Shown one piece after another: positions 2,714 to 15,784 of a DNA stretch of 64,000 nucleotides. The translations under genes were made by a program, and so were the position numbers. Below the pieces are notes generated by a model, which saw nothing but the letters and a program-made list of their open reading frames with translations, did no database searches and was not told the origin of the DNA. Within the stretch, counting starts at the first letter, position 1. Each line of letters starts with the position of its first letter. The DNA is from Candidatus Avoscillospira avicola (GTDB lineage: Bacteria; Bacillota; Clostridia; Oscillospirales; Oscillospiraceae), in contig DVHE01000043.1 of assembly GCA_018712245.1 (NCBI GenBank), positions 1 to 64,000 of the forward strand, given 5' to 3'.

Positions 2714-2790
2714 TGGCACCCCCGGCGAGACTCGAACTCACTACATTCCGCTTAGGAGGCGGACCCTCTATCCTGGTGAGGTACGGGGGC
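2714..2790 (-). tRNA. tRNA-Arg (anticodon CCU), CCA encoded
   Basis: GCCCCCG TA CCTC ACCAGGATA GAGG G TCCGC CTCCTAA GCGGA ATGTA GTGAG TTCGAGT CTCGC CGGGGGT G CCA folds as a complete cloverleaf. Confidence 0.9.
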
Positions 2791-5775: not shown

Positions 5776-6444
5776 ATGACCATTTTTCTGGTGGAAGACG
5801 ACACCACCATCGCCGGTGCTGTGGCGTCGCATCTGCGGGCCTGGGGCTACGACTGCTACGTGGCTGAGGACTTTCGGAATGTGCTGGAGGCGTTTCAGCG
5901 TGTCCAGCCGCAGCTGGTGCTGCTGGACCTGATGCTGCCCTTTTACAACGGCTTTCACTGGTGTCAGGAGATTCGCCGTGTCTCTCAGGTGCCGATTCTG
6001 TTCCTTTCCTCGGCGTCGGACAATCTCAACATCCTCACGGCCATCCAGATGGGCGGCGACGACTTTCTGGCCAAGCCCTTTGACCTCAACATCCTGGCGG
6101 CCAAGGTGCAGGCGCTGCTGCGCCGGGCCTACGACTTTGCCCCGCCGGCGGAGGTTCTCCGCTGCGGCGACCTGCGGCTCAACGTGAACGACGGCACCGT
6201 GGAGCGGGGAGAGCAGCGCACGGCGCTGACCCGCAACGAGCTGCGGATTTTGCAGGTGCTGCTGGAAAACCGGGGCAAGATCGTCAGCCGGGACCGGCTG
6301 ATGGAGCGGTTGTGGGAGAGTGACAGCTTTGTGGATGAGAACACGCTGACCGTCAATGTCAACCGGCTGCGCAAGACGCTCTCCGCCGTGGGGGCGGAGG
6401 ATCTGATCGTTACCAAAAAGAAAATGGGGTATCTCATACCATGA
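5776..6444 (+). CDS. OmpR-family response regulator (BceR-like)
   Basis: Receiver MTIFLVEDDTTI...LLDLMLP...KPF plus winged-helix C-terminus. Confidence 0.93.
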   Translation: MTIFLVEDDTTIAGAVASHLRAWGYDCYVAEDFRNVLEAFQRVQPQLVLLDLMLPFYNGFHWCQEIRRVSQVPILFLSSASDNLNILTAIQMGGDDFLAKPFDLNILAAKVQALLRRAYDFAPPAEVLRCGDLRLNVNDGTVERGEQRTALTRNELRILQVLLENRGKIVSRDRLMERLWESDSFVDENTLTVNVNRLRKTLSAVGAEDLIVTKKKMGYLIP

Positions 6445-7427
6445 AGCTGCTTCTTGCCTATCTGCGGCGGCAGCGCCACTGGGCGGCGCTGTATGCCCTG
6501 GTCGCTGCGATCTTTGCGGTGGTGTTTTATCTCCACGATGTGCCGCTGGTGGCGCTTTCCTATGCCCTGCTGCTGTGCGGTGTGGTGCTGACCCTGGCGC
6601 TGGGGTGCGGCTTTGTTCTGTGGCGACGCCGGCATCTGGCGCTGGCGGACAAGATCCGAGCCGAGATGCTGACGGCGGAACGGCTGCCGGAGGCGCTGGA
6701 CCTGGTGGAGGAGGACTACCAGACCCTCTACCGGGAGGCGCTCAGGAGCAAGACGCTGGCCCTGGACCGGCGGGATCAGCAGGAGAAGGAGCTGACGGAA
6801 TACTATACCCTCTGGGTCCATCAGATCAAGACGCCTATCTCCGCCATGCGGCTTTTGCTCCAGGGGGAGGACACCGACCTGAGCCGGGAGCTGGAGGCCC
6901 AGCTGTTCCGGATTAACCAGTATGTGGAGATGGTTCTGGCGTACCTCCGCATGGGCAGCGAGAGCCGGGACTATGTGCTGCGGCCCTGTTCCCTGGAGCC
7001 GGTGGTGAAGCAGTCGGTGAAGAAATTCGCGCCGCTCTTCATCCGCAGCCGAATCAAGCTGGAGTTGGGAGACCTGCAGATGACAGCCATCACCGATGAA
7101 AAGTGGCTGGCCTTCTGCCTGGAGCAGCTCCTGGCCAACGCCATCCAGTATGCGCCCCGGGGCACCGTTACCGTGGAGTACCGGGACGGACGGCTGGTGG
7201 TACGGGACACGGGTATCGGCATCGCGCCGGAGGACCTGCCCCGGGTTTTTGAGAAAGGCTACACCGGCCTCAACGGGCGCCGGGAAAAGCGGGCCACCGG
7301 CATCGGCCTGTATCTCTGCCACCGCATTCTCACCAACCTGGGCCATACGATCTCCATCGCCTCGGAGATTGGCCGTGGCACGGAGGTGGCAATTTCTTTT
7401 CCCCGGCAGCCCGATGCTTGGGAATAA
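6441..7427 (+). CDS. Intramembrane-sensing histidine kinase (BceS-like)
   Basis: Two N-terminal TMs, short loop, H-box 'LWVHQIKTPISAM', ATPase motifs; overlaps the response regulator stop. Confidence 0.92.
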   Translation: MKLLLAYLRRQRHWAALYALVAAIFAVVFYLHDVPLVALSYALLLCGVVLTLALGCGFVLWRRRHLALADKIRAEMLTAERLPEALDLVEEDYQTLYREALRSKTLALDRRDQQEKELTEYYTLWVHQIKTPISAMRLLLQGEDTDLSRELEAQLFRINQYVEMVLAYLRMGSESRDYVLRPCSLEPVVKQSVKKFAPLFIRSRIKLELGDLQMTAITDEKWLAFCLEQLLANAIQYAPRGTVTVEYRDGRLVVRDTGIGIAPEDLPRVFEKGYTGLNGRREKRATGIGLYLCHRILTNLGHTISIASEIGRGTEVAISFPRQPDAWE

Positions 7428-7450
7428 TAGAGATTAGGGACTGCAATGGG

Positions 7451-7879
7451 AAGCACCGCCCGGTCAAGGCTTTTGCCTTGACCGGGCGGTGCTTGGACTG
7501 TCAAAACTATGATGAAAGCCGCCGCGACAGAGCAGCGGGGGGTGTGTGCGGGGGGCAAAAAGCCCACCGCACGTTCAATAAGGGTGTATTTGCAACTTTT
7601 TAAAGTTGCAAATACTGGGGCAGCGTGTCAAAAAACCTCCGGAAGCGGGAAAGAAGCCTCGCAGAGTTTCGCCGCCGCAGCGGCGAAATAAAATTTAAAT
7701 TGCGATTTCCGGGGACATGTGCATCGGAAATCGCACTTTACACTTCAAAAGGTTCGACAGCTTTTCGAAGAAAACCGAGAACCTTTTGGAGTGCAGTCCC
7801 CTTTGTCAAAAAAGCAACGCTTTTTTGACAGTCTGAAGCACCGCCCGATCAAGGCTTTTGCCTTGATCGGGCGGTGCTT
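7451..7879. repeat. 429-bp hairpin-array element with inverted termini
   Basis: Terminal 20-bp-arm hairpins AAGCACCGCCCGGTCAAGGC/TTTT and AAGCACCGCCCGATCAAGGC/TTTT; internal hairpins at 7586-7615, 7667-7688, 7701-7735, 7741-7793 and 7805-7829. Confidence 0.8.
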
Positions 7880-7914
7880 GTTGATGGGGGCAAGATGCCT
7901 GGAGGCGGTGGGCG

Positions 7915-8994
7915 TCAGCTGCTCTCTTTTTCCATAAGCGTCCAGGGCAGCACTTGCGATTCACAGGGCGAGCCCTCCAATAGCTTCAGGAGCATTTCAG
8001 CGGCGACGTGTCCCGTATTGATGTGGCCGTGAGAGAGGGAGGTGATGCGCACGGGAGAAAGCTCACTATATTGGCTGTTGTCAAAGCTGACCACAGCCAG
8101 CTGCTCCGGGATGGCGACAGATCGCTTGAGCAGGGTGTTGATGAGCCTCGAAGCCACCTCGTCATTGTAGCACACCACGGCGGAGCAGCCCTCCAGGAAC
8201 TTAAGCAGCACTTCTGGAATGGCGCGGGACTGACTGCTGAAAAAGCGTTCCTTCTCCTCGGTGCCGTACCAGAGAATATGCGTATCCTGCATGGAAAGGC
8301 CGAAGTCCCGCATGGCGTCGGCGAAGCCTGCGTAGCGGCGGTGGCCCTGGATGTCGTCGGATTTGAAGATGCCGGCGATCTGCCGATGGCCTTTGTTATA
8401 GAGGTATTCCACCAGGGCATAGCCGCCGCCGTAGTTGTCGTCCAGTACGGAGACGGTGCCGGTCAGCTCGGCATAGTTGCCGTTGAGGAAGACCAGCGGG
8501 ATACCCCGTCCGATCAGCTGCCGGTAGAGGTCCAGATTGGGGTTGGGGAGGCAGGTCTTGGTGCCCTCCACCAGCAGCCCGTCCAGCTGGGGCAGCTCCA
8601 GCAGGGTGGAGAGGATGCGCCGCTCGTTGGAAATCTGGTTTTTGGTGGCAAATACCAGAGTCGTGCAGTGATTGGCAGAGAGAACAGATTCCACTTCCCG
8701 CAAGATGCTGGGGAAGATATAGTCGCTGATATAGGTGGTGAGGACCGCCACGCTTCTGGGGGCGGAGACTGGCTCACGGATGGGGATGTTGCGAATGTGA
8801 GAGCCGCTGCCCTGGCGCTTTTCGATTAGGCCCTCCTGTACCAGTACTGAGAGGGCCTGGCGGACAGTCTGGCGGCTGAGCTGATAGGCCTCGGCAATGG
8901 CTTTTTCTGTAGGTAGCAGGCCTGTGGCGGAGAAAGTCCCGGCAGCGATCTGCTCCCGCAGTGTATTGGCCAGCTGCTGATATTTGGTTGCCAT
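7915..8994 (-). CDS. araR: GntR/LacI-type arabinose repressor AraR
   Basis: N-terminal GntR HTH plus LacI-like ligand domain; divergent from araB/araD. Confidence 0.85.
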   Translation of the reverse strand: MATKYQQLANTLREQIAAGTFSATGLLPTEKAIAEAYQLSRQTVRQALSVLVQEGLIEKRQGSGSHIRNIPIREPVSAPRSVAVLTTYISDYIFPSILREVESVLSANHCTTLVFATKNQISNERRILSTLLELPQLDGLLVEGTKTCLPNPNLDLYRQLIGRGIPLVFLNGNYAELTGTVSVLDDNYGGGYALVEYLYNKGHRQIAGIFKSDDIQGHRRYAGFADAMRDFGLSMQDTHILWYGTEEKERFFSSQSRAIPEVLLKFLEGCSAVVCYNDEVASRLINTLLKRSVAIPEQLAVVSFDNSQYSELSPVRITSLSHGHINTGHVAAEMLLKLLEGSPCESQVLPWTLMEKESS

Positions 8995-15262: not shown

Positions 15263-15490
15263 AAGGGCGCACTCTACCTGAGTGCGCCCTTTTGCGTGGC
15301 GAAAATGCTTTTTCGCCACGCTGCCCTAGTTTTTGCAACTTTGAAAAGTTGCAAAAACGCCATGATTGAACGTGCGTGGCCCAGGCCAGCTTCTCTTGCC
15401 CTGTGGGCAATTAACCTTCGTGGGCTCTTTGGCCCCCGCACACACCCCCGCTGCTCTGTTGCTGCGGCTTGTATCATAGTTTTTTGACAG
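15263..15490 (-). repeat. Second hairpin-array repeat locus sharing a module with 7451-7879, opposite orientation
   Basis: Hairpins 15263-15291, 15294-15321, 15329-15358; reverse complement shares 'GTCAAAA..CTATGAT..AGCCGC.GC.ACAGAGCAGCGGGGG.TGTGTGCGGGGG' and 'CGCACGTTCAAT' with 7.5 kb. Confidence 0.75.
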
Positions 15491-15514
15491 TTTTATCATA
15501 GAAAGGAGAAGCGC

Positions 15515-15784
15515 ATGGAAGAAAATCGCGTGGCGCTGCTGGGCATCATCGTGGAGGAGCCGGACTCTGTTGAGGCCCTCAACGCGCTGCTCCACCAGTA
15601 TAAGGACTATATCATCGGCCGAATGGGCCTTCCGTACCGGGAACGGAAGATCAGCATTATCAGTATCATGTTGGACGCCCCACAGGACGCCATCAGCAGC
15701 CTGGCCGGCAAGGTGGGGATGCTGCCGGGCGTATCCTGTAAGGCCATCTACTCCAAACTTGCCCATGGACCCGCTGCTGAGTGA
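15515..15784 (+). CDS. TM1266-type iron-only hydrogenase system regulator
   Basis: ACT-like 89 aa protein 'RVALLGIIVEEPDSVEALNALLHQYKDYIIGRMGLPYRERKISIISIMLDAP' upstream of hydE. Confidence 0.88.
   Translation: MEENRVALLGIIVEEPDSVEALNALLHQYKDYIIGRMGLPYRERKISIISIMLDAPQDAISSLAGKVGMLPGVSCKAIYSKLAHGPAAE

Follow-up and report, generated by a model that had tools for sequence, protein, structure and literature searches.

The region 7451-7879 of the window (the whole stretch of 64,000 nucleotides of Candidatus Avoscillospira avicola DNA that was analysed) consists of two short mobile elements between two copies of the terminator hairpin of a host gene. It very probably arose when this terminator was hit by two non-autonomous derivatives of an IS1182-subgroup insertion sequence (IS), moved by a transposase that selects hairpins and duplicates the whole hairpin. 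The two elements belonged to two repeat families with common ends, the targets were hairpins that were duplicated in full, and empty sites of related ISs carried a single hairpin.

Organisation of the locus

The locus showed four parts in the order hairpin copy 1, mini-element B, mini-element A and hairpin copy 2. The features of the window were as follows:

6441-7427, plus strand: sensor histidine kinase gene, owner of the hit terminator; in two congeners, the orthologues (L129, L130) are followed by a single terminator hairpin without an element
7451-7494, no strand: terminator hairpin copy 1, the left target-site duplication, with a 20-bp stem directly 3′ of the sensor kinase stop codon; AAGCACCGCCCGGTCAAGGCTTTTGCCTTGACCGGGCGGTGCTT
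7495-7620, plus strand: mini-element B, right-truncated, its terminal 32-bp hairpin CAGCG..CGCTG missing
7621-7835, plus strand: mini-element A, short form, complete, with ends CAGCGTGTCAAAAAACC...TTTTTTGACAGTCTG
7836-7879, no strand: terminator hairpin copy 2, the right target-site duplication; AAGCACCGCCCGATCAAGGCTTTTGCCTTGATCGGGCGGTGCTT
7915-8994, minus strand: putative GntR/LacI-type regulator gene, convergent neighbour, taken from the ORF listing and named from its translation
15291-15493 (approximate), minus strand: second B copy in the window, a long form with an internal insert that matches family B

The RNA fold of 7440-7890 had an energy of -236.6 kcal/mol compared to -150.0 ± 6.6 kcal/mol for dinucleotide shuffles (z = -13.1), and none of the 100 shuffles was as stable. 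Its dot-bracket structure contained the stems listed in the original prediction with the end hairpins exactly at 7451-7494 and 7836-7879, which confirmed the hairpin array. The original prediction had taken the two ends for inverted copies that form part of the element and had found no convincing target-site duplication. Comparison of the outer 44-bp hairpins showed 2 differences in direct register and 6 in inverted register; the 2 differences were one compensatory pair (G-C to A-T), and the loop was TTTT in both. The outer hairpins are therefore direct repeats of one palindrome, a target sequence duplicated directly and not element ends, and their reading as inverted terminal repeats was rejected since the direct register fits better. 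They belong to the host terminator, are locus-specific and are themselves the target-site duplication. The kinase orthologues of the two congeners showed a single terminator hairpin after the stop codon; these are only approximate empty sites for the window, as the next gene differs and the genomes are congeners rather than strains. No credible ORF and no transposase gene were present in A or B in the ORF listing, as the original prediction had stated for the coding content of the array.

For the second B copy, a terminator-like hairpin (about 15266-15290) abutted one side only, and the copy was located just upstream of a small ORF at 15515. Elsewhere in the window, a tyrosine-recombinase-like integrase ORF (1112-2524) was found beside a tRNA gene (2717-2790, minus strand), which suggests an integrated element at the tRNA.

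Mini-element families A and B

The genome of origin (G000) is an 84% complete draft of 2.41 Mb in 87 contigs with breaks in repeats. A search of G000 with the 429-bp region produced 79 matches that were mostly limited to query positions 171-386. When these matches were aligned with their flanks, the repeated unit proved to be 7621-7835 (family A), and all sequence outside it varied by locus. Family A was present as about 40 fragments or copies with 84-97% identity, and many contigs began or ended within A. Its copies were 214 bp or ~275 bp long, the long form having an additional hairpin segment of ~61 bp. For family B (query 7495-7625), 47 matches were found, many of them near full length, with about 78-88% identity; intact copies were ~160 bp or, in the longer form, ~205 bp. 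Multiple copies at variable loci supported mobility, the outcome that the original prediction had set against single-copy presence. A single 429-bp element was rejected because A, B and the outer hairpins differ from one another in copy pattern. The earlier reading as a MITE-like element thus stood as to non-autonomous mobile DNA and fell as to a single unit.

The ends common to A and B were CAGACTGTCAAAAAA and CAGCGTGTC[G/A]AAAAA. The exact end motif AGMSTGTCRAAAAA occurred 95 times in G000 while the reversed control occurred 0 times. The ends CAGNNTGTCRAAAAA of A and B were also found on IS1182-family ISs of relatives, the likeness being confined to the ends. A and B are non-autonomous mobile DNA because they are multicopy, dispersed and short and have ends in common with an IS. 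Short geneless bodies, many dispersed copies, IS-type ends and a target-site duplication are the features of MITEs, and A and B are very probably MITE-like non-autonomous derivatives of an IS1182-subgroup IS. An intact IS1182-subgroup transposase with A/B ends was not found in G000, an incomplete draft that breaks in repeats. A possible autonomous partner was present in the congeners, as an element cut off by the contig end in G003 and a fragment in G007.

In the internal stems, pairing was kept, and 6 pairs of B and 7 pairs of A had both bases replaced in one or more copies. Such compensatory changes indicate that the hairpin form is maintained at the DNA or RNA level. Together with the very stable fold, they would agree with a large structured RNA, the alternative named in the original prediction, that acts as a regulator or attenuator 3′ of the two-component system. 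This reading is highly improbable: an Rfam covariance search of the window showed only a tRNA above threshold and no match for the hairpin array, copies of both orientations occurred at the ends of dozens of unrelated genes, the outer hairpins were different at every locus, and the orthologous place in the congeners had no element. An RNA function of A and B is not required by any observation, and the RNA alternative was dropped as unneeded.

Hairpin duplication around mini-element copies

The flanks were compared for 35 near-complete copies having both flanks, by local alignment of the left 50 bp of each copy with its own right 50 bp. The same gene-end hairpin was present on both sides in 22 of the 35 copies, counted where the own-pair score exceeded the maximum of the mismatched pairs. 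The mean own-pair score was 20.4 compared to 5.8 for mismatched pairs (maximum 11 among 1190 pairs), and the observed mean was reached by none of 10,000 permutations. The duplicated stretch was a direct repeat of 23-38 bp with the length of the hairpin itself, and at most matching sites the repeat abutted the element ends and coincided with the hairpin feet. Stems of at least 9 were found in 27/35 left flanks and 30/35 right flanks compared to 6.5% of random 50-mers. Overall, the sequence next to nearly every copy was a G+C-rich, locus-specific hairpin close to the end of a gene.

As hairpins adjoined the ends of most copies, a mobile double-terminator cassette, in which the element carries its own captured hairpin pair, was also considered. 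Such a cassette is scarcely conceivable, as the left flank of one copy never matched the right flank of another (maximum off-diagonal score 11), and the permutation matrix refuted it.

The remaining 13 copies showed no matching pair above the strict threshold, and some of these showed two different hairpins. Loci L003, L004, L021, L028, L095 and L098 had two ends that adjoin two different hairpins, possibly due to recombination between copies or to insertion between two terminators. At a few sites the loop of the hairpin was inverted (L061, L080, the IS copy L099, and E. faecalis L211 compared with empty site L218). The simple model of hairpin duplication leaves these inverted loops unexplained; resolution of a cruciform at the sites concerned would be compatible with them.

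Transposase-carrying relatives and empty sites

The IS of G003, with the end AGACTGTCGAAAAAGTCC, immediately followed the terminator hairpin of a gene resembling UDP-glucose dehydrogenase. Its transposase matched PF05598 and PF01609 above cut-off, and the closest NCBIfam was IS1182 (NF033551, E = 2.7e-68), with a score of 231 bits that is below the curated cut-off of 270; the contig end cuts this protein short. Complete relatives from Oscillospirales were about 1.5-1.8 kb long with the same end motif and a duplicated hairpin (L093, L094, L105, L108, L184, L185, L187, L188, L190, L194, L203 and L205); in L093, AGAGGGGGAAAGATTTCCTTTCCCCCTCT was present on both sides of the IS. The pattern was also shown by plasmid ISs of Enterococcus, Sutcliffiella, Peribacillus and Bacillus (L208-L213 and L216), which are annotated as IS1182 and whose transposases were about 45% identical to the Oscillospirales ones. 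In total, about 19 full IS1182-subgroup elements kept the hairpin on both sides, with duplications of 19-39 bp. IS1182-like proteins of less than about 30% identity (L112, L113, L115 and L117) showed no hairpin duplication at their sites. L089 and L090 were rejected as partner ISs, since they matched PF05598 in ISs without A/B ends.

Variable long duplications occur in other IS families, for example of the IS1634 type. An alternative source of the repeats is accordingly a transposase that cuts linear duplex DNA with a long stagger of loose size, hairpins being merely common at gene ends. This alternative is unlikely, as almost all matching sites had a duplication bounded by the hairpin ends, and its length tracked that of the hairpin over the range 19-39 bp. 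Since both the ends and the length of the duplication follow the hairpin, recognition of the hairpin is needed.

Empty sites were searched for three plasmid ISs with both flanks joined by a single hairpin as query. This search showed 85 uninterrupted E. faecium records with a query coverage of at least 80%, and further uninterrupted records in E. faecalis and E. raffinosus. The hairpin doubled around the IS was present exactly once at the fetched E. faecium and E. raffinosus empty sites, while the E. faecalis empty site had one hairpin with the loop inverted. The empty sites and target duplications proposed as a check in the original prediction were thus found for the plasmid ISs, with one hairpin at empty and two at occupied sites, and approximately for the window through the congeners L129 and L130.

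Mechanism and comparison with known systems

By the proposed mechanism, the transposase would pick hairpin-forming DNA, mostly intrinsic terminators, by structure instead of sequence. The DDE transposase would join the element by its 3′ ends to both 5′ feet of the hairpin, one per strand, and the target would be a cruciform or a single-stranded hairpin. Gap filling would then copy the whole hairpin, giving a duplication as long as the hairpin and a terminator on both sides (terminator-sparing insertion). A and B would have been mobilised in trans. On balance, the IS1182 subgroup appears to read the geometry of an extruded hairpin and to attack both 5′ feet, with a duplication of exactly the hairpin at any length.

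IS1272, a member of the IS1182 family, targets terminator hairpins, which are deleted without duplication (PMC4923244, PMC5678879). Duplication of a whole stem-loop, with the joins made at the 5′ feet of a cruciform, was described as the hypothetical 'pathway b' (PMC5678879), and the data here fit this branch. In the literature searched, which left aside the Siguier reviews and ISfinder where long repeats may be recorded, hairpin duplication in the IS1182 family was found only in the IS1272 papers, as a hypothesis. MITEs and IS1182 palindrome targeting with loss of the hairpin are known; duplication of the whole hairpin is only hypothesised in the searched literature.

Given its membership of the same family and its terminator-hairpin targets, IS1272 would suggest that the element replaces the target hairpin and that the second hairpin is of other origin. 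Such replacement is very unlikely for the present elements. The whole hairpin was retained on both sides of the 22 mini-elements and the about 19 full ISs, empty sites had one hairpin and occupied sites two, and replacement is refuted as a general rule here. In the staphylococcal IS1272/TnSha1, the transposase family, the mostly terminator hairpin targets without sequence consensus and the insertion at the hairpin foot are alike; however, the hairpin is deleted or replaced without target duplication there, while the entire hairpin is duplicated here. ISEfa7 and annotated IS1182-family ISs of Enterococcus and Bacillaceae plasmids have ends CAGNNTGTNGACAAA and duplication of the whole hairpin in common with A and B, with duplications of 19-30 bp and with empty sites of their own, but are autonomous and ~1.5 kb long, whereas A and B are geneless. 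REP/BIME and REP-targeting ISs also combine intergenic palindromic repeats with palindrome-directed insertion; in contrast, the mobile unit here bears IS1182-type ends and its targets are terminators that are single-copy and unrelated to one another. For ISPse1 (Paracoccus) and ISCaa15 (Amoebophilus), placed in IS1182 by published classification, 4-bp target duplications were reported, so not every member of the family duplicates a hairpin.

The copies and empty sites form a large natural data set with the opposite outcome to the published cases, the terminator being copied whatever its length, and hairpin duplication provides a handle on whether a DDE transposase reads DNA secondary structure. 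If the mechanism is true, terminator-sparing insertion would let ISs and mini-elements accumulate, even serially, at gene ends at little cost. Copying of the terminator would explain the pile-up of elements at gene ends without loss of transcription stops. Such elements break assemblies of these gut bacteria, and paired locus-specific hairpins offer a simple rule by which to find them.

Composite of B and A

In the window, the arrangement was T-B′-A-T (T, terminator), with the last hairpin of B and the middle T absent. A occupied the exact place expected for B's own terminal hairpin, and the B/A junction could have arisen by replacement of that hairpin by A. Under serial hairpin duplication, two insertions into one terminator would have produced T-B-T-A-T at the window locus. 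Direct repeats of 14 bp, CAGCGTGTC[G/A]AAAA, were present at the right end of B and the left end of A. A deletion between them would have removed the last hairpin of B and the middle terminator, which gives exactly the T-B′-A-T of the window. Contigs C33 and C6 ended in the same B copy with the same terminator on both, which implies the arrangement gene-T-B-T-A-T-gene across the contig gap, and contig C11 carried B (reverse)-T-A.

Solo end-hairpins of 32-37 bp without a body were also found beside terminators at L222 (G000 contig C27, about 15893) and L225 (G000 contig C85, about 23945). Their sequences were CAGCGTGTCGAAAAAGCTCTTTCGACACGCTG and AGACTGTCAAAAAAGCAACGCTTTTTTGATACGCTG, and they are relics or minimal mobile units.
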